Below are positions 3,431 to 43,947 of a stretch of DNA of 51,206 nucleotides, in pieces. Under the pieces are notes generated by a model that saw only the letters and a list, made by a program, of their open reading frames with translations, was not told where the DNA came from and did no database searches. The DNA is from a virus: IMG/VR virus record IMGVR_UViG_3300037153_000206, positions 1-51,206 of that record, one strand, 5' to 3'. Every line of letters starts with the position of its first letter. The stretch's first letter is position 1. A program made the translations under genes and the position numbers.

Positions 3431-4216
3431 GTGCGTCTACGAATCCTGTTTGTGAGCGTCAGTGCCGGGATGGCGCTGACGTTCATGAGCGCGCTGCCAG
3501 CGGTGACCGGTGGCCAGCCGGTGTCAGATCACGGTCATCACGGCAAGCACCACAAGAAGAAGGTGACGATCTGCCACCGGCCTCCCGGCAATCCGGGCAA
3601 CGCGCACACGATCCGGGTGAGCAAGAAGGCGCTAAAGGCGCACCTGGCTCATGGTGACACTCTTGGCAAGTGTCCGAAGCCGCATCCGACGCCGACGCCC
3701 ACCCCCACGCCGAGTCCTACCCCGACTCCGACGCCGACAGCTACGCCGACACCGACTCCCACGGCAACGCCGACGCCAACAGTGACGCCAACTCCGACGC
3801 CGGTCGTGGGACCGCCAGGGCCTCCCGGTCCTCCTGGCCCACCCGGACCTCCCGGACCTGCTGGACCTCCGGGACCGCCTGGCCCTCCTGGCGCTGACGC
3901 TCCGGTGTCGTGCCCGAAGGGATCGGTTCGCGTGGCGCGGTGGCGCGTTGTTGTCAAGCGTGGTCACAGGGTGACTTCGTTCAAGGCGACGTTCAATGGC
4001 GAGAAGGCTCAGGTCCGCAAGACGCGCACGAAGGGCGGGCGGCGAATGTTCGTCATCCGTATTGACATGCGTGGGCTGACGAAGGGCATCTACAACGCCC
4101 GCATCCGCTACCGGCTCGCCGGAGAGCACCGCAAGTTCCCGCACAGCAAGGTCCATCTGTACCGGGCCTGCGGCGGCAAGGACTCGCTCAACGCAGAGAC
4201 GATCATCACGATCTAA
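3431..4216 (+). CDS. Secreted collagen-like surface protein
   Basis: A 261-residue modular secreted protein. A signal peptide covers about residues 1-28 (basic start, then a hydrophobic run). Residues 45-81 contain a CHRPPGNPGNAHTI module found in bacterial secreted proteins. Residues 86-124 are a Pro-Thr repeat and 127-154 a Gly-Pro-Pro collagen-like repeat. A C-terminal domain of about 90 residues (160-250) follows, with cysteines near each end. The GTG at 3431 is preceded by AAGGAGG. Secreted proteins of Solirubrobacterales often end in similar domains (from memory, not searched). A strong terminator follows. It is not an obvious virion gene; it may be cargo that alters the host surface. 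Confidence 0.75.
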   Translation: MRLRILFVSVSAGMALTFMSALPAVTGGQPVSDHGHHGKHHKKKVTICHRPPGNPGNAHTIRVSKKALKAHLAHGDTLGKCPKPHPTPTPTPTPSPTPTPTPTATPTPTPTATPTPTVTPTPTPVVGPPGPPGPPGPPGPPGPAGPPGPPGPPGADAPVSCPKGSVRVARWRVVVKRGHRVTSFKATFNGEKAQVRKTRTKGGRRMFVIRIDMRGLTKGIYNARIRYRLAGEHRKFPHSKVHLYRACGGKDSLNAETIITI

Positions 4217-4815: not shown

Positions 4816-5023
4816 GTGGAACACCCGGATGTTCCACTTCATGTAAGATGCGCGCCGCCGCTCCGGTTCTTGTCCGCTCACCTCGGATCGAGCCGGGGCG
4901 GTACCCACACATAGCACCCGCCGCTGTGACCCCTGCCTGGCGAGTGCGCTTAGCCTGCGGCCCCCGTTGGACTTCGCTCGTTGAGAGACAGGGTTGAAGG
5001 GACACCAGCGGGGGTCGTCCTTT
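4816..5023 (+). ncRNA. Candidate small RNA unit with dyad operator
   Basis: About 480 bp (4577-5056) holds no convincing gene but is organised. A perfect 8-bp inverted repeat (GTGGAACA/TGTTCCAC, 4816-4837) is followed by a -10-like TAAGAT (4844-4849). A strong stem, CCCCCGTTGG (4961-4970) with CCAGCGGGGG (5005-5014), then precedes TCGTCCTTTGTC. Together these could make an RNA of about 165 nt with its own terminator. This is inference from signals only; the stem could instead be a stand-alone terminator. Confidence 0.3.
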
Positions 5024-7460: not shown

Positions 7461-7771
7461 GCTTCAAGAAGGGTGATCTCATCCCGGTCGCGCTCGGCGG
7501 CTACATCCGCGTCATCAATCCTGACTGGCCTGAGGGTGACGAGCCGTTCTGCGAACGCGCCGATCCCAACACCTGGGCGCTCGTCTACCTGCGCCCGGAC
7601 GGCTGGTGGGAGGCAGGACGCGGCTGGGACACGCTGCACGATGCGCGCGAGGACGGCAAGACCCACGCCTGGCACGGAACCTCCTGGGGAATTGTCAACA
7701 TTCCTGAAGACATGCCTCAGATCCAGATGTCGGACGGCGAGGATCTGACGTGGGGAGAGAAGTACGAATGA
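7457..7771 (+). CDS. Hypothetical protein, 104 aa
   Basis: GTG start overlapping the previous stop (GTGA). The protein is Trp-rich (WWEAGRGWDTLHDA, HAWHGTSWGIVN) and acidic at its end. The opening FKKGDLIPVALGGYIRVI resembles a small beta-barrel. Its role is unknown. Overlapping stop/start codons couple it to both neighbours. Confidence 0.6.
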   Translation: MSFKKGDLIPVALGGYIRVINPDWPEGDEPFCERADPNTWALVYLRPDGWWEAGRGWDTLHDAREDGKTHAWHGTSWGIVNIPEDMPQIQMSDGEDLTWGEKYE

Positions 7772-8295
7772 GCGCAGCAATACTGCTGATTGACCCCAAG
7801 TACGGGCACAACATCGGTGCGACCGTGCGAGCGGCGGCAACTCTCGGCGCTCCTGAGGTGCGCTGGACCGGCTATCGCGGCGCGCGTGAGGTGCAGGCAC
7901 GGATTCCTCGTGAGGAGCGTCTGCGCGATTACCGTGCTCGTGTGGACTTCGGTGAGCTTGAGACTGTCGAAGGTGTTGTCAAGCCCATCGACATCTACGT
8001 CGAGCGCGGGTTCACGCCGGTTGCCGTCGAGGTGCTGCCCTCGTCGGAGTCACTGGTCGATTTCGTACATCCTCACAATGCTCTTTACATCTTTGGGCCG
8101 GAAGACGGCTCGTTGACGAAGGGCATCAAGGAGGTGTGCCACCGGTTCGTGTCGATTCCGAGCAAGGGATGCCTCAACCTGGGCGCGGCGGTCAATGTCG
8201 TGCTGTACGACCGGCTGGCGAAGGCGACAGCAAAGGAAACAATCGCGGGACTCCGCGAAACAATAGCGACACTACGAGAGGAAGGTGTGGGATGA
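7768..8295 (+). CDS. SPOUT (SpoU/TrmH-like) RNA methyltransferase
   Basis: A 175-residue protein with the three SpoU signatures: HNIGATVRAA near residues 14-23 (motif 1), LYIFGPEDGSL near 106-116 (motif 2, the SAM-knot glycine loop) and SIPSKGCLNLGAAVNVVLY near 129-147 (motif 3). These proteins transfer a methyl group from S-adenosylmethionine to ribose or bases in tRNA or rRNA. The length equals a bare catalytic domain without an RNA-binding extension. The ATG at 7768 overlaps the previous stop. Such an enzyme is unusual in phages and may modify host tRNA; the substrate cannot be read from the sequence. Confidence 0.85.
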   Translation: MSAAILLIDPKYGHNIGATVRAAATLGAPEVRWTGYRGAREVQARIPREERLRDYRARVDFGELETVEGVVKPIDIYVERGFTPVAVEVLPSSESLVDFVHPHNALYIFGPEDGSLTKGIKEVCHRFVSIPSKGCLNLGAAVNVVLYDRLAKATAKETIAGLRETIATLREEGVG

Positions 8296-13948: not shown

Positions 13949-14183
13949 TCTCACTCCCTTGCAGTTGGAAATCGTCATGCATCTTGCCAATGGCAGGACG
14001 CTGAACGAGATCGCCAAGACTCTTGATCGCTCGCGCAGCCACATCGGACAGCAGGCTGATCGAGCGCGGCGCAAAGCACAGGCCAGGACGCTGCCGCAGC
14101 TTGTGTCAATCGTGATTGCTTCTGGTCAGCTTGAGTGGCAGGACAATCAGCGCGTGCTCAACGGCGCTACCCCGCCTGCGTGA
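13935..14183 (+). CDS. LuxR-type helix-turn-helix protein, 82 aa
   Basis: The sequence [20 protein letters not shown], followed by [20 protein letters not shown], is a GerE/LuxR-like DNA-binding domain, here without a sensor domain. GTG start at 13935, overlapping the zinc-ribbon gene. Its 3' end overlaps the convergent tail-fibre gene by 17 nt. It may be a transcription activator or a sigma-4-like protein for later genes; that is inference. Confidence 0.7.
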
Positions 14184-15540
14184 TCCACCGCACCGCGTAG
14201 AACGGCGGCAGGTTCTCGTGGTCGCTCGCAGCGCTGGCTGCTGCTGCGGCAGTGACAGTACCGTTGAGGACATGGCCGTGCGCTGGGACGGTGTGCGTGT
14301 GCGCGGCTGAGCGCCCACCTGTGCCGGTGAACTGACCCCACCCGCTGCCGGTAGCTTGCACGAGGTTCCACCCCGCGCCACCGCCGCTGTCGGCCTCCTT
14401 GATGTTGGGGACGGCGTAGCCACCGTTCGTCGCTCGATGGACATTGCCGCCAAAAGCGTGCGTGTGATCGGCGCTCTCAGTTCCTGTCGCAATTGCTGCT
14501 GCATTTGCCACGGCGAAGTCGTCAGTGTGTCCATGCGCTGGTAGGCCAGACTCTGCGCCAGTCAGCTTGACGCGCTCAGCGCCGCCAGTAGCGCCAGGCG
14601 CTCGCGTGCTGCCTGCGCCAATCAGGAACTTGTCGCGCAAGTCAGGCATGTTGGCACCGAACAGAGCGGCAAGCTGCGGGTACTGCGTGGCGTTGATCGC
14701 TTGGCCGTTGAACTCGATGTAACCAGACGGTATTGCTGACACAAGCCAGGGAATCGGTGCGCCGATCAGTCCAGCGCCAGGCGGTCCCTGCGGGCCGACC
14801 GAACCTTGGACGCCCTGTGGACCCGGTAGGCCGTCTGCTCCGTCTTTTCCGGCTGTTCCTTGCGGCCCTTGTGCTCCTGCTGCTCCGGTGTCGCCCTTCG
14901 GGCCGGGGATGCCAGGCTGTCCCTGATCTCCCTGTGCTCCTTGCGGCCCCTGCGGTCCTGGCGGTCCTTGTGCTCCCTGCGGACCTTGCTGTCCTGTCTG
15001 CGCTTCTACGACAAGACTGACTTCAACTCTGGCGTTCTTCACCGGCTGCTGGGTGACCTTTGTCACAGTGCCGGTGATGGTTGAGTAACCGTCAGCACCA
15101 GCGACAGTGGCTTCCACCGTCTCGATAGTCACGTTGACAGTGGACCCCTGCGAGCCACGAGCCATCAGGATGTTGCCTGGTTGGGCGATGCCGCTGCCGC
15201 CACTCCACACCAGTCCGTCGTCGTCGGTGTGAGAGAGGTAGACCGTGAGTTGCTGATCCACCACGATGGGATCGGGCGTCGTGCGGATCTGGCCAGCGCC
15301 TGGCGGTGGGTTCAGGCTCGTGCTGTACTGCCACCACCCTGTCAACAATGCTCCACCAGGCGGACCAGGCGGTCCTTGTAGACCTTGTTCTCCTTGTGGG
15401 CCGACTCCCATCGTCCATTCGGAGCCGGTCCAGACGTGCATGTGCCCGTCAGTTGTGTTGAAGTAGACCTCACCCGGCTGCGGATTAGCCGGAGGAACTG
15501 CCAGGCGGGTAACGCGGAGGCGTCCAGTGAACTCAGGCAT
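14167..15540 (-). CDS. Collagen-like tail fibre with tail-collar domain
   Basis: A 457-residue fibre on the reverse strand. The N-terminal segment (about 1-45) is a short trimerising region seen in phage fibres ([20 protein letters not shown]). Gly-X-Y repeats lie near 48-63 and 185-255, separated by a globular domain. From about 265 comes a phage tail-collar domain ([26 protein letters not shown]), with a His-rich receptor-tip-like region ([25 protein letters not shown]) and the ending [11 protein letters not shown]. Such proteins mediate host adsorption. It is co-oriented with the two genes upstream, opposite to the other tail genes. Confidence 0.85.
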
Positions 15541-16661: not shown

Positions 16662-17222
16662 TCAGCAGTTGGGCCAAGCGTCGTAGGTGACATGACTAGC
16701 GATCTCGTCCTGCACCCACTCCGGCGCATTCCCATACGCGCCGGGTGCTCCTCCATGGGCGACCCACGTCCCGTAGTCGAACTGGTACTTCCCCCAGTAC
16801 GTCCCTGACGGGTCAACCACCTGCGGGTTCCCTCCGCTCTCGCACTGTGGGTTGACCATGGGGTTCGATGATCCGCCGTTGGCAACAGTCCTGGCACTTC
16901 GAACCCCTGCCGGTGGCTGCCTCGGGGGCACATCTTCCTGATGCGCGTAAGGCGGCGCGTACAGCAACTTGACAAGCTGCTTGTTACTGCGGCGGATCTC
17001 ACTGCACACTGCTCTGAACGTCACGCCCTTGAATCGGACTCCGTACTTGCGGATGTTCCTGCCGGGGGCGCGGGTGCCATGTCTCTTGGCAACCATCCGG
17101 TAGTGCTTGCTGTATGACCGCTCCAGCTTGCGCTTGCAGTCGGACATGTCTGCACTGGCCACGCTAGGGACCAGCAGCCCTGCTGCCAAGCTGGCAACAG
17201 TCACAACAAGTAAACGAGGCAT
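16662..17222 (-). CDS. Secreted Rpf-like transglycosylase (lysin)
   Basis: 186 residues. A signal peptide (MPRLLVVTVASLAAGLLVPS, cleavage near ASA) directs export. A basic central region of about 85 residues follows. The C-terminal domain (about 118-186) has the resuscitation-promoting-factor/lysozyme pattern: QCESGGNP with the catalytic Glu, then GTYWGKYQFDYGTWVAHGG and an ending DAWPNC. Such enzymes cut the glycan strands of peptidoglycan. I start at the ATG at 17222, which has AGGGAG 5 nt upstream, rather than at 17315. The export signal means lysis might not need a pore, or it may be a virion-independent host-wall enzyme. Its leader is exceptionally structured. Confidence 0.8.
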   Translation of the reverse strand: MPRLLVVTVASLAAGLLVPSVASADMSDCKRKLERSYSKHYRMVAKRHGTRAPGRNIRKYGVRFKGVTFRAVCSEIRRSNKQLVKLLYAPPYAHQEDVPPRQPPAGVRSARTVANGGSSNPMVNPQCESGGNPQVVDPSGTYWGKYQFDYGTWVAHGGAPGAYGNAPEWVQDEIASHVTYDAWPNC

Positions 17223-17233
17223 GGTGGCTCCCT

Positions 17234-17395
17234 GGCCCACCTCTCCAGCGCTACTGATGGCTCCTCGCCATGCGCTGGCCGTGGGCCGGGGATCACCTCC
17301 TTTCGTTGGGGCCACGCGCCCATCGGTCCCTGCCGGTCGCTCCTCTCGGCAGGAGCAGCCAGTAGACCCTCCGAAAAGGAGCGATTAGCAGGGAC
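17234..17395 (-). promoter_or_regulatory. Structured 5' leader with extended Shine-Dalgarno site
   Basis: On the leftward transcript, GTCCCTGC/GCAGGGAC (17395-17388 with 17333-17326) closes a three-way junction holding CTCC-GGAG and GCTCCT/AGGAGC hairpins. Next comes GAAAGGAGGTGATCC (17304-17290), complementary to 15 bases of the 16S rRNA 3' end. Then a long hairpin follows with three nested perfect stems: GGCCCAC/GTGGGCC, CCAGCGC/GCGCTGG and ATGGC/GCCAT (17287-17234). The start codon lies 11 nt after it. Riboswitch-like control or a ribosome standby site is possible; both are inference. Confidence 0.6.
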
Positions 17396-17427
17396 TTTCA
17401 GGGGTCACAGCGGCGGTTGACCGGATG

Positions 17428-17436
17428 ATCCTATCA
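17428..17436 (-). promoter_or_regulatory. Extended -10 element TGATAGGAT (leftward)
   Basis: TG-A-TAGGAT overlaps the 3' end of the small HTH gene. Transcription from about 17421 would give a leader of about 200 nt for the lysin gene. Confidence 0.5.
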
Positions 17437-17646
17437 ACCGATGCTGCGGTCGGCCACGATCCGGCGAAGGTCAGCCGGGGTCAGGCCGGACGCCTCGGAC
17501 ACATCGTCAACGGTGCAGCCAAGTCGCGTGATCGCTTCGTAGCACGCCTGCTCCAGCCGTGCGCGGGCTTCTAGGCCGCGAACCTCGGCGCGGATGAGGG
17601 CGTTGCTGGTCGAGCGAACGATGTTGAGAGTGTCAAGCGTGGTCAT
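17434..17646 (-). CDS. Small helix-turn-helix protein, 70 aa
   Basis: ATG at 17646. The first half is a charged helix (NALIRAEVRGLEARARLEQA); the second is a typical helix-turn-helix (ITRLGCTVDDVSEASGLTPA, then LRRIVAD). The layout resembles small phage DNA-binding or packaging-associated proteins. A TACACT -10-like sequence lies just upstream on the reverse strand. The role is unknown; a local regulator of the neighbouring lysin promoter is one option. Confidence 0.6.
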   Translation of the reverse strand: MTTLDTLNIVRSTSNALIRAEVRGLEARARLEQACYEAITRLGCTVDDVSEASGLTPADLRRIVADRSIG

Positions 17647-17779
17647 CGCGAGATCCAGTGTACGTGATCGCAGCAAGGTTGTCTATAGGCGTGTAGACGC
17701 TGTTCTCAGGATCTAAACCCCAAGCTGCCAAGTGTGTGCAAAGAATCACTGTTTCGGGTCGCTGATCTGACCGTAGCGC

Positions 17780-17788
17780 TGGTAGGTT
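17780..17788 (+). promoter_or_regulatory. Extended -10 element TGGTAGGTT of the structural operon
   Basis: TG-G-TAGGTT, with the GTG start of the next gene exactly 6 nt downstream. It is the only promoter-like signal between the leftward genes and the capsid operon, so it is a candidate late promoter. Confidence 0.6.
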
Positions 17789-17794
17789 CGCGCG

Positions 17795-18097
17795 GTGGTC
17801 GTGATCGCTCCTGGCCAGGAAGAAACGCCCCGACCGTCGTTGGTCGAGGGGAATCAACTGCGTTGTCCGAAGTGTGAGGAGCTTGGGGATCTCTTCCGGG
17901 ACTTCAGAGCGCTGGAGCGCAACGACAAGTACGCGCATGAACTCAACATGGTTTACAAGCATCGCGGCTGTGGCCATGTCTTCTCCCCTGGTGACCCGCA
18001 GATCATCGCCGCCTACCTGGCCGGTGACCTTGTTCCGCGAGCACTGCTCGATGACGCGAGACGACAACTGAGGGAAGGAGGTGTGAAAGCAGCATGA
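17795..18097 (+). CDS. Zinc-binding protein opening the structural operon, 100 aa
   Basis: The GTG at 17795 falls on the predicted transcription start, with no ribosome site, so translation is probably leaderless. The product has LRCPKCEELGDLFRDFRALE, then HRGCGHVF, a likely zinc ribbon (C-x2-C ... C). It ends in a helix (YLAGDLVPRALLDDARRQLR). It is coupled by ATGA to the head protease gene. Terminase or portal would normally stand here; this protein is too small to be either. Confidence 0.65.
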   Translation: MVVIAPGQEETPRPSLVEGNQLRCPKCEELGDLFRDFRALERNDKYAHELNMVYKHRGCGHVFSPGDPQIIAAYLAGDLVPRALLDDARRQLREGGVKAA

Positions 18098-37684: not shown

Positions 37685-38839
37685 ATGCTGTGGAAGTTCA
37701 TCCTGGTAAATAGTAACGACTTGTCACACATCGGGGAGCTTTCCCAGGCGCGTGGCAAGAAGGTCGAGGTCGTGCTCGGGAAGCCGGGGGCAGCGAACTT
37801 CACCTACCCGATGAATGCCCGCTATGCCGAACTGATCCAGGCGTACAAGAGCGGCATCAAGGCGATGCGCTGGAATCGTAAGGCGTCGGCGCTCGCTGGC
37901 CATGACGTATGGGACTGCATGTGGTCGGGCTTCGTCATGCCGATTGGCGAGACTGTTGACGCAAACCACATGGCGGTGTCGTGCGTTGGGTGGCAACACC
38001 GGCTGGCCAAGCGCTTCGTCCGGCGTGACAAGATCTACAACGCGCAGGACGATGGCGCAATCGTGCAGGATCTGCTGGTCGAGATGAACACGGACCCATC
38101 TCCTGGCGACGGCTACCCGATTGTTACCCCGGCTGGCTCCAACCCTAATACGCCAACATGGCTGACATGGGGAGGTACGCAACCAAACGAGGGCGTCGGT
38201 GGGGCGACGGCCTACGTGGCACAGAACCGCAACAAGACGGTGCAGAAGTACACCTACGTCGGCGCGACCATCGAGGAGTTGCAGGGGATCGAGAACGGTG
38301 GCGATATTGTTGTCAATCCTCTGACGAGAGAAGTGACGTGGCACCGTAAGTACCGGCGCGTCAGGGACGATGTGGTGCTCGGATTCCAGTGGGGTCCGCG
38401 TAATGTTCGGGCGTTCGGGCGCAACTTGGAGTCGGATTCCCAGGTCAACTACCTTGTCACTTCAGGAGCACCGGGGACGACACCGCAGTACGCGCATGAC
38501 ACGACTCAGCAGAGCACTATCGGGCTGCTTGAAGAGAGCGTCGTGCTCGCTGATGTCAAGGATAACAACGTGCTTCTGGCGTACTCCGGTGGCGAGATCC
38601 TGATCCGCAACAACGGCCTGATCACGTACACCGTGCAGCCGTTCCCGCTGCCCTACGACCGGCCAAGCAACGTGCCGGAGGCGTTCCTCGATTTCCGTGT
38701 CGGTGATCAGGTCCGGCTCACGGCAGTTCACCCTCCGCGCGTTGGCATCCGTGGGCAGGCAGTGCGGATCTTCGGCATGAGCGTAGACATTGATGACAAC
38801 GGAGTGGCTGCGCTCGGGCCACTACAGGTGGCACCATGA
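37685..38839 (+). CDS. Tail-associated baseplate hub protein, 384 aa
   Basis: The ATG follows directly on the Dit stop. The fold order (LWKFILVNSNDLSHIGELSQ, a central DLLVEMNTDPSPGDGYPIVT, and DFRVGDQVRLTAVHPPRVGI near the end) fits Tal/gp27-like hub proteins, which close the tail tip below Dit. The length corresponds to the bare hub without a C-terminal enzyme. Confidence 0.65.
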   Translation: MLWKFILVNSNDLSHIGELSQARGKKVEVVLGKPGAANFTYPMNARYAELIQAYKSGIKAMRWNRKASALAGHDVWDCMWSGFVMPIGETVDANHMAVSCVGWQHRLAKRFVRRDKIYNAQDDGAIVQDLLVEMNTDPSPGDGYPIVTPAGSNPNTPTWLTWGGTQPNEGVGGATAYVAQNRNKTVQKYTYVGATIEELQGIENGGDIVVNPLTREVTWHRKYRRVRDDVVLGFQWGPRNVRAFGRNLESDSQVNYLVTSGAPGTTPQYAHDTTQQSTIGLLEESVVLADVKDNNVLLAYSGGEILIRNNGLITYTVQPFPLPYDRPSNVPEAFLDFRVGDQVRLTAVHPPRVGIRGQAVRIFGMSVDIDDNGVAALGPLQVAP

Positions 38840-40188
38840 CCGACATCACCACACCTGAGCATACGCTCGTCGTCCGTCCTGACAAGATGGCGATGCTGAC
38901 GGAGGGGGATCGCGTTCCTGAGCGTCTGGACCGCCTTGAGCGCGCAGCAGCCGGTGGCCTGCTTGGCGGCGGTGGTAGTGGCGCTCCGACGCCTGGTGAC
39001 ACGTGGCAGAGCTTTGCCTACGGGGCGGGCATTGCGGCGGTCGTGGGCTGGAAGCTTCTGCCGATCAACGCCGATGCATCATTTACCAAGACTGGTGACC
39101 CTGCGGCATTCACACGCAATGCCAACGGCTCTCTCACTATTCGTGATGCGGGCGTCTTCGAAATCAACGCGGTCATCCAGATTGCTGGTACGGCGACTGT
39201 CGATCTGAAGGGTGCGCTGCTACAGAAGGGTGCGGCCGATGCCACTCCGACCGACGCAAGCACTTTCCTGACGCAGCAGTCGGCTTCGCTTGGCTCGACG
39301 TACTACGCGCCTCTCTCGTTCGTCGGCTACCTTCCAGCAGGACAAGTCATCTCGATCCTGAGCTATGGCGCAGGCTCGTATACGCGACAGTGTTTGCACT
39401 TCGAGATCTCTCGTATCGGTGCTGGTGCAAAGGGTGCTGACGGTGCTCAGGGAGCCATCGGCCCTGCTGGTCCGCAAGGCATCCAGGGCAACCCTGGCGC
39501 ACAGGGTCCGGCAGGAGCGACGGGAGCTACTGGCGCTCCGGGACCGGCAACACTGGAGACATATATCGGTACAGCGCAGCCGGTTCCGCGCGGTGACTAC
39601 ACCGTCTGGATCGACACTGACGAGGCGGGTCCGGATTGGCCACCGCGTCTGGTCGATACGCTCCCGGCCTCTCCTGTCGTTGACGGCACTGAGGTCTACT
39701 ACCTCGCTGATGGCACGGATGTGGTGTGGCATCTGCGCTACGACGCACTTATCGCCAGTGGTGACGGATATGGCTGGGTCTTCATCGGCGGTGGGCCGAT
39801 AGCGCGCGAGCGGTTGGTTGATGAGGCGGCGTCGTTCGGCGGGCCGAGCACTTGGGGAACCTTCAACGCCAACGATCCGCAGATTACGCTCCCGCTCCCT
39901 GGCTACTACCGCGCTCAGAGCGTCGTCGGCGTTCAAGTAACGAATGCGACGACGATGGGGCACGGTTTGAACATCGGCGGCACAGCGCCTGTCAGCAATC
40001 AGAACGGAGTTTTCCAAGTGGTTGTTGCGGGATCGTCATGCATACTGCCACTTTCCCGTGCGCTTCCGCTGGTTCCTGCTGTCCCTTCGATCATTCGGCA
40101 AGCCTATTGGCAGAATGCCGCAACGCAGAACCTGACCATGCGGATGCGGCGACTTGAGATCTGGCCGGTGAGGGTGAAGAAGGCATGA
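38836..40188 (+). CDS. Collagen-like tail fibre protein, 450 aa
   Basis: ATGA overlap. Residues 1-45 include a short coiled region (ERLDRLERAA). A C1q/TNF-like beta domain (about 55-190; WQSFAYGAGIAAVVGWKLLP) comes next. Gly-X-Y repeats at about 198-235 and a linker PATLETYIGTAQPVPRGDYT lead to a C-terminal beta domain. The linker is nearly repeated in the next gene (PATLETYIGTAAPSPRGDYT), pointing to shuffled fibre modules. Confidence 0.7.
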   Translation: MTDITTPEHTLVVRPDKMAMLTEGDRVPERLDRLERAAAGGLLGGGGSGAPTPGDTWQSFAYGAGIAAVVGWKLLPINADASFTKTGDPAAFTRNANGSLTIRDAGVFEINAVIQIAGTATVDLKGALLQKGAADATPTDASTFLTQQSASLGSTYYAPLSFVGYLPAGQVISILSYGAGSYTRQCLHFEISRIGAGAKGADGAQGAIGPAGPQGIQGNPGAQGPAGATGATGAPGPATLETYIGTAQPVPRGDYTVWIDTDEAGPDWPPRLVDTLPASPVVDGTEVYYLADGTDVVWHLRYDALIASGDGYGWVFIGGGPIARERLVDEAASFGGPSTWGTFNANDPQITLPLPGYYRAQSVVGVQVTNATTMGHGLNIGGTAPVSNQNGVFQVVVAGSSCILPLSRALPLVPAVPSIIRQAYWQNAATQNLTMRMRRLEIWPVRVKKA

Positions 40189-42866: not shown

Positions 42867-43214
42867 ATGTTGACTACTCTTGCGATTGTCGAATGGGCAC
42901 AGATCGTCCCGCTTGCCATTGGCATCTTCGGCCTCGGCGGGCTGATCTTCACTGCCCTGCGATTCCGGCGCGACGACACGACAGCCATCGTGAATCAACA
43001 GTCAACAATCTTGAACGACATGAAGAAGCTCAACGAGGAGCTTCGGACGACAGCAGACGGATTGCGAGTCGAGCGCGATGGACTGCGGGAGCAGGTGGCG
43101 AACCTGTCGGGCCAGGTGGAAGCCCTGAGAGGCGAACTGAAAGAGGCACGAGAGCACATCGGTGGCCAGGTGGAAAGGCTGGAGAGGAAAATTGACAACG
43201 GACAGAACGAGTGA
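42867..43214 (+). CDS. One-span membrane protein with coiled coil (holin/spanin candidate)
   Basis: 115 residues. Residues 6-31 form a membrane helix (VEWAQIVPLAIGIFGLGGLI); the rest is coiled coil (LNEELRTTADGLRVERDGLR). A short anchor with an extended coil is typical of phage i-spanins and of some holins. It is the first of three adjacent membrane proteins after the tail genes, the usual place for lysis functions. No clear ribosome site. Confidence 0.55.
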   Translation: MLTTLAIVEWAQIVPLAIGIFGLGGLIFTALRFRRDDTTAIVNQQSTILNDMKKLNEELRTTADGLRVERDGLREQVANLSGQVEALRGELKEAREHIGGQVERLERKIDNGQNE

Positions 43215-43947
43215 CATCGATATTGTCACTGAACATATCGACAACCAAGGCCGGACGGTGTTGCAGTACAGCCGTCAGCGGTTTCTCGGTACGTGGTGTG
43301 CGATTGCGTTGTTGGCGATCCTCACCGCGCTCGCGCTGTGGCTGGGCGTGCGTGGCTTCAACTACGACAACGCGCAGAACTACACACTGGCGACGCAGGC
43401 TGGCGATACGGCTGACACCGCCAATACCAAGAGCAATGACATCTATCTGTTCCTGCGGGGTCAGCGTGGCCTCCCCGGTGTGCCGGGAGCAGACGGCAAG
43501 GACGGTAGCCCCGGACAGCCTGGCTCGAATCCGGCGCTGCTGCCGCCAGGCCCAAAAGGCGCTACTGGCAATACCGGCCCTACTGGGCCTGCTGGTCCTG
43601 CGGGACCGGTCGGCCAGACTGGCACTGCGGGTCCGTCCGGCTCTGCGGGAGTCAAGGGTGATGTCGGTGCGACCGGAGCTACCGGTGCTCAAGGTGACGC
43701 CGGAGCGCCTGGTGCTGACTCGACTGTTCCTGGCCCCGAAGGTGCGAAGGGGGAGACGGGTGCGGAAGGGCCTGCTGGGATTCAAGGTCCAGAGGGTCCG
43801 GCTGGGCCACAAGGACCGCAAGGCCCGGAGGGACCGGCAGGACCGGCTTGTCCGGCTGGATCAACACTCACGCAGATCAACGTCCACGAGCGATTCCCGG
43901 AAGGCACAGCCGTGATTCTCGTGTGTCTGGTGAGTAGATCGCCATGA
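43192..43947 (+). CDS. Membrane-anchored collagen-like protein, 251 aa
   Basis: TTG start at 43192 with GAGAGG upstream, overlapping the previous gene; GTG at 43162 is the alternative. After a short cytoplasmic part comes a membrane helix (about 35-55; CAIALLAILTALALWLGV), then from about residue 90 a Gly-X-Y repeat of about 130 residues, and a C-terminal stub. Its motif YSRQRFLGTW is shared with the next gene (YSRKRFLWTW). A collagen-like rod held in the membrane is unusual for a phage. Confidence 0.6.
   Translation: MTTDRTSDIDIVTEHIDNQGRTVLQYSRQRFLGTWCAIALLAILTALALWLGVRGFNYDNAQNYTLATQAGDTADTANTKSNDIYLFLRGQRGLPGVPGADGKDGSPGQPGSNPALLPPGPKGATGNTGPTGPAGPAGPVGQTGTAGPSGSAGVKGDVGATGATGAQGDAGAPGADSTVPGPEGAKGETGAEGPAGIQGPEGPAGPQGPQGPEGPAGPACPAGSTLTQINVHERFPEGTAVILVCLVSRSP

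Follow-up and report, generated by a model that had tools for sequence, protein, structure and literature searches.

A conserved hairpin between a distant Shine-Dalgarno sequence and the start codon of a phage Rpf-like enzyme gene: a candidate split ribosome-binding site

The enzyme gene and its leader

The DNA analysed here, referred to in its entirety as the window, is a virus record of 51,206 bases that carries phage head, tail and tail-lysozyme genes. Its minus strand encodes, at 16662..17222 (ATG at 17222-17220), a 186-aa protein with a C-terminal Rpf-like transglycosylase domain (Pfam PF06737 match, E=2e-10). The protein also matches M. tuberculosis Rpf domains of solved structure and, judged by eye, has an apparent signal peptide. 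Many cellular homologues of the enzyme occur in an actinobacterial class (59/299), which suggests that the host of the phage is an actinobacterium. Among cultured phages, we found no relative of the leader of this gene, nor of the enzyme at the thresholds used.

Upstream of the enzyme gene and on the same strand lie a gene for a 69-aa HTH protein (17434..17643, minus; PHROG 686 HTH, E=0.0014) and, upstream of that small gene, a sigma-70-like promoter, TAGACA-17-TACACT (17657..17685, minus; one found versus 0.0 expected in shuffles), so the enzyme leader is probably intercistronic, although a transcript might also begin within it. An inverted repeat, GGTTGA-TAGGATCATCCGG-TCAACC (~17439-17415, minus), spans the stop codon of the HTH gene and is conserved with the closest relative, L003; it may serve as an operator or form an RNA hairpin. 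Exactly two copies of the 18-nt sequence CCGCCGCTGTGACCCCTG are present in the window (4918-4935, plus; 17399-17416, minus), with 0.13 occurrences expected when up to 3 mismatches are allowed. The minus-strand copy sits just 5' of a long hairpin in the enzyme leader, and the plus-strand copy lies in a long intergenic stretch near 4.9 kb and is followed by a GC-rich inverted repeat (CCCCCG...CGGGGG); a role as phage promoter or as processing signal is possible. Elsewhere, the window encodes a SpoU-family RNA methyltransferase (7750-8295, plus; PF00588, E=2e-13) and proteins with collagen-like repeats (14167-15540, minus; 3431-4216, 38836-40188 and 43162-43947, plus), which are probably tail fibres or surface proteins.

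The leader contains a distal Shine-Dalgarno (SD) sequence, GAAAGGAGGTGATCC (17290..17304, minus), that is complementary over 15 nt to the 3' end of 16S rRNA. A preliminary description of this DNA had pointed to the complementarity, which proved to be the longest anti-SD match of the window (15 nt versus 10 nt for the next longest). Its GGAGG core (17300-17296, minus) lies 73 nt from the ATG, beyond the normal distance to a start codon: GGAGG-led genes of the same phage (those at 18094, 19386, 20353, 21430, 22159, 23321 and 5345, from which the norm was taken) have a spacing of 7-12 nt.

Between this SD and the ATG, the RNA is predicted to fold into a hairpin (17287-17234, minus) with three nested perfect stems of 7, 7 and 5 bp that ends 11 nt before the ATG at 17222, in agreement with the preliminary description. 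The lowest of these stems, P1, pairs GGCCCAC (17281..17287, minus) with GTGGGCC (17234..17240, minus). An internal loop, with GG on its 5' side (17279..17280, minus) and AGAG on its 3' side (17241..17244, minus), leads to P2, in which CCAGCGC (17272..17278, minus) pairs with GCGCTGG (17245..17251, minus). The predicted fold continues past an asymmetric bulge on the 3' side, CAGTA (17252..17256, minus), to P3, ATGGC/GCCAT (17257..17271, minus; strands 17271-17267 and 17261-17257), which is closed by the apical pentaloop GAGGA (17262..17266, minus). We also identified an outer helix, P0, absent from the preliminary description, in which UCCC (17289..17292, minus) pairs with GGGA (17229..17232, minus). 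P0 overlaps the 'GATCC' end of the 15-nt complementarity, and its 3' strand lies within a proximal SD-like sequence, AGGGAG (17233-17228, minus). The 85-nt piece from SD to ATG has a predicted folding energy of -50.6 kcal/mol (z = -6.0), and none of 200 shuffles was as good.

Further upstream (17326..17395, minus), the preliminary description had placed a closed three-way junction. Although the outer stem of this junction is real, a fold that includes its two inner hairpins reaches at best -35.4 kcal/mol versus -43.6 kcal/mol for a long hairpin (the MFE fold, 8 kcal/mol better), and those inner hairpins have pair probabilities of 0.00; we therefore rejected the junction as the main fold. The long hairpin is shared only with L003, which has the outer stem in common with the window and also folds as a long hairpin. 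At this position, three other related phages (L005, L006 and L010) form different strong hairpins, the one in L006 being terminator-like, and inspection by eye revealed none in L004 or L007. Because the relatives differ here, the upstream structure lies outside the conserved element described below.

Conservation of the hairpin among related phages

Relatives were collected by scanning IMG/VR with the enzyme (37-90% identity). Six other uncultivated phages with a homologous enzyme (L003, L004, L005, L006, L007 and L010) share the plan of the leader: GGAGG, 2-3 nt, a hairpin, a few nt and the ATG. The GGAGG is kept in all seven leaders (as GGAAGG in L007), and its distance to the ATG is 70-80 nt throughout. 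The full 15-nt complementarity is particular to the window phage; its relatives keep the SD core, mostly without the extension, and the intact 15-nt match was accordingly rejected as a conserved feature. Five leaders form subtype 1, and the other two, L004 and L007 (subtype 2), differ in the interior while retaining the SD, P0 and P1. The subtype-2 interiors share GAAGUCACGUA(C/G)CGACAA, a long motif that sits within otherwise diverged stems and whose first G differs in fold position, not in sequence.

A covariance model (R1) was built from L003, L006 and L010 only, with the window left out. It matched the window (E=2.3e-15), L005 (6.7e-5), L004 (1.8e-4) and L007 (3e-3), each time at the start of the enzyme gene. 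In the fitted alignment (A6), 95% of cells were paired and 13 of 20 pairs had changed on both sides, compared to 31-40% of cells and 1-5 two-sided pairs in slid controls. A fitted alignment leans towards its own structure, and the count was repeated on a structure-blind MAFFT alignment of five sequences (A3). Here, 94% of cells were paired and 5 of 13 pairs were two-sided (slid versions, 31-51% and 1-2 pairs). RNAalifold, run on A3, independently predicted P0, P1, P2 and P3, with 10 two-sided pairs. P1 exhibited two-sided changes in all 7 pairs in A6 and in 5 of 7 in A3, and P2 in 3 of 7 in A6. The pairs of P0 are kept in 7 leaders with compensatory changes, its core varying mainly by C-G/U-G wobble, and the AGG of its 3' strand is kept in 7/7. 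A search for compensatory changes in related phages, which the preliminary description had proposed as a check, thus supported the hairpin.

Among the window, L003, L006 and L010, the strands of P1 and P2 are identical at 12-24 of 28 positions (43-86%), whereas the three loops are identical at 10-11 of 11. The conserved loops are the internal GG/AGAG and the apical GAGRA. The GG is invariant in the five subtype-1 leaders, the pentaloop reads GAGGA or GAGAA in four, and an A-rich bulge occupies the place equivalent to CAGTA in L003, L006 and L010. L005 keeps the stems and the GG, with AGAG changed and a different apical loop. The unpaired bases among the covarying stems are conserved in four leaders, changed in L005 and replaced in L004 and L007. 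Comparison of the leaders supports the hairpin well, though from only seven sequences, two of which have a replaced inner part.

Distribution of the element

Each phage record contains at most one match to the element, located at the enzyme start codon only. An upstream ORF or an N-terminal extension running through the element was rejected, since in five relatives in-frame stops occur 3-45 nt before the ATG; because these stops interrupt the reading frames, the comparison indicates that the element is non-coding. Pattern scans of all IMG/VR for both subtypes returned only the phages already known. The DNA pattern AGGAGGTGATCYACYGG gave 12 matches in viral contigs, which were dismissed as unrelated and mostly coding, and the subtype-2 motif AAGTCACGTANCGACAA was real in L004 and L007 only, the remaining matches being other sequences.

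In samples of actinobacterial genomes (396 from the phylum and 399 from the class to which an actinobacterial MAG belongs), three weak matches were found and judged by their context to be due to chance. The single match returned by a bacterial pattern search was also judged a chance one. The searches of large genome sets used stricter filters, under which weak matches are lost and remote bacterial versions could be missed. The element was absent from 12 fetched cellular enzyme loci of the actinobacterial class and from the more distant viral homologues L008, L030 and L032-L035. In two of the latter, L030 (~920-1005) and L034 (~1350-1435), an SD-like GGAGGTG lies upstream, accompanied by a GC-rich stretch and by a second SD at normal distance. 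This may be a relative of the arrangement or a degenerate version of it; both phages were excluded from the member count. A separate sequence, ACAAGACGCTCATAGT.TAAAT, occurs before the enzyme in L010 (~2520-2545) and after it in L009 (~150-175), two records from the same sample (3300001686). A strong hairpin follows each copy, and the sequence looks like a repeated phage promoter.

The preliminary description had also raised the idea of a c-di-AMP (ydaO) riboswitch. An Rfam scan gave this no support: the ydaO/yuaA riboswitch (RF00379) was found neither at gathering nor up to E=10 on 17100-17850. Rfam covariance models run on the relatives gave nothing up to E=1, and the element matches no Rfam family. 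It resembles actinobacterial rpf leaders (the rpfA ydaO riboswitch and the M. tuberculosis rpfB attenuator) in being a structured leader of an Rpf-type enzyme. The M. tuberculosis rpfB element acts through an intrinsic terminator with a U-tract (PMC6009663); in contrast, no terminator-like site (stem and U-tract) is present at 17215-17433.

Possible modes of action

We propose, with about an even chance of being right, that the element is a structure-dependent split ribosome-binding site (RBS). The only strong SD of the gene (GGAGG, 17300-17296), at 73 nt from the ATG, would lie outside the working range. The RNA between the two would fold as one hairpin, P0-P1-P2-P3, with P0 clamping its base, such that the hairpin would be looped out and, for the 30S subunit, only ~9 nt would separate SD and start codon. 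Folding would turn translation on, and the conserved loops may be the contact site of a factor that tunes the timing of the cell-wall-cutting enzyme. According to the preliminary description, only folding of the hairpin would bring the long complementarity close enough to the ATG, and the spacing bears this out: the P0 helix begins 3 nt downstream of GGAGG and closes 6 nt short of the start codon, so that with P0 formed 3+6=9 nt would be left in the window, which is inside the working range. In the other leaders the folded spacing is 5-12 nt (~5 in L004), by hand counts on the P0 core that depend on the extent of P0. The split RBS is favoured by the much greater strength of the distal SD compared with the proximal one (duplex energies of -13.6 to -25.7 versus -4.9 to -8.0 kcal/mol), and co-folding with the anti-SD leaves P1 and P2 folded in the subtype-1 leaders. 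In most leaders, however, the distal SD is predicted to be accessible to a low or moderate degree.

In T4 genes 38 and 25, a hairpin cuts the spacing from 22 to 5 and from 27 to 11 nt, respectively, and initiation drops when the hairpin is weakened by mutation (PMC3014915). Like these split ('accommodated') RBSs, the present element combines a distant SD with a hairpin that would restore a working spacing, in a phage gene and with conservation among relatives (PMC3014915). All the features of a T4-type split RBS that can be read from sequence are present here. The T4 sites have spacers of 22-27 nt; the spacer here is 70-80 nt, with three or four stacked helices. In addition, its internal and apical loops are conserved, its clamp helix includes an SD-like sequence, and the element belongs to another phage lineage and another type of gene.

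This limited accessibility, the mainly wobble variation of the P0 core, the short folded spacing in L004 and the small number of leaders (seven, two with the inner part replaced) count against a split RBS, and so do two properties of the clamp helix. The 15-nt duplex with the anti-SD and the P0 helix are in competition in the window: P0 comes apart on co-folding, which would leave an unpaired spacer of ~19 nt. Moreover, the 3' strand of P0 holds the invariant SD-like AGG, which lies 3-10 nt from the ATG and is paired by P0 in 7/7 leaders, as expected if P0 hides a proximal SD. Both speak for a different arrangement, in which P0 would sequester AGGGAG (17233-17228) and the distal SD would serve as a standby site: the 30S subunit would wait there, pairing with GGTGATCC would pull the P0 strand off and free the proximal SD, and initiation would be slow, late or conditional. 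The proximal SD is indeed paired in the predicted resting fold (mean unpaired probability 0.25-0.54), and there is precedent in T4 gene e and homing endonuclease genes, whose RBSs are hidden in hairpins (PMC3014915), and in tisB, with a standby site ~100 nt upstream of a sequestered RBS (PMC7708055). We nevertheless consider sequestration with standby rather unlikely. The proximal SDs are weak (-4.9 to -8.0 kcal/mol), and the one in L004, at 3 nt from the ATG, is too near it. Only the leaders of the window and L003 retain the whole stretch of distal complementarity needed to invade P0, and the P0 core comprises just 3-4 bp. T4 gene e (lysozyme) and I-TevI/mobE resemble the present case in having structure at phage gene starts, one of them that of a cell-wall-cutting enzyme, but their hairpins hide the RBS (PMC3014915), whereas here the strong SD is 5' of the hairpin and the AUG lies outside the conserved helices. 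In tisB, too, the 30S subunit lands upstream and the start region is structured; the tisB standby site is single-stranded, rather than a strong SD, and is accompanied by a pseudoknot needed for S1 and 30S binding (PMC7708055), unlike the 15-nt SD directly beside the hairpin here. Sequence alone is compatible with either folding that switches translation on or SD sequestration with standby.

A ligand- or protein-responsive switch, with the loops (GG/AGAG and GAGRA; GAAGUCACGUA(C/G)CGACAA in subtype 2) as binding sites and P0 plus the SD as output, overlaps both of these models and may act through either. Compensating stems around unchanging loops are what we would expect of an RNA recognised by something, and stems of 43-86% identity beside nearly invariant loops in four leaders, like the long motif common to L004 and L007 inside diverged stems, argue for such a role. 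By its sequence, the GAGRA loop also appears to fit the GNR(N)A-type pentaloop shape of boxB RNA of lambdoid phages, with a U-A closing pair in L003 and L006. Against a switch stand the lack of a ligand and of an Rfam family match, the loss of the apical loop in L005 (a difference from boxB as well) despite its retained stems, and the occurrence of the element in 7 phages only and not in the samples of 396 and 399 actinobacterial genomes. This distribution argues in particular against a host metabolite riboswitch, and a factor contacting the loops would more likely be a phage or host protein than a metabolite; it could act on a split RBS or on a sequestered SD. A switch of some kind thus has a tentative place among the readings, at somewhat less than an even chance. 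Its most specific version, with one output module (SD plus P0/P1 clamp), interchangeable sensors (GG/AGAG with GAGRA, or the subtype-2 motif) and a factor-stabilised fold that turns enzyme translation on, seems to us quite unlikely. The preliminary description had suggested a standby site or a switch; the former stays a rival and the latter a possibility. Finally, the hairpin might be a chance structure of a GC-rich leader, with nothing functional beyond an ordinary proximal SD. GC-rich leaders fold readily, and the individual folds of L005, L010, L004 and L007 are modest or no better than shuffles (z -0.5 to -2.4). However, the covariation already contradicts this very improbable reading, with compensatory changes far above those of controls and a window match of E=2e-15 to a model lacking the window.

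Together, these results describe a structured RNA family without an Rfam match, whose covariation is good for seven sequences. As a split RBS, the element would be a new, larger version of the type known from phage T4, differing in size, conserved loops and gene context. Its hairpin would lie within a ribosome-binding site and, at >50 nt, is over twice as long as those of T4; in every case the gene concerned encodes a phage cell-wall-cutting enzyme. If folding does turn translation on, the element would be a naturally occurring ON switch with an uncommon design and would hint at how these phages control the timing of such an enzyme.
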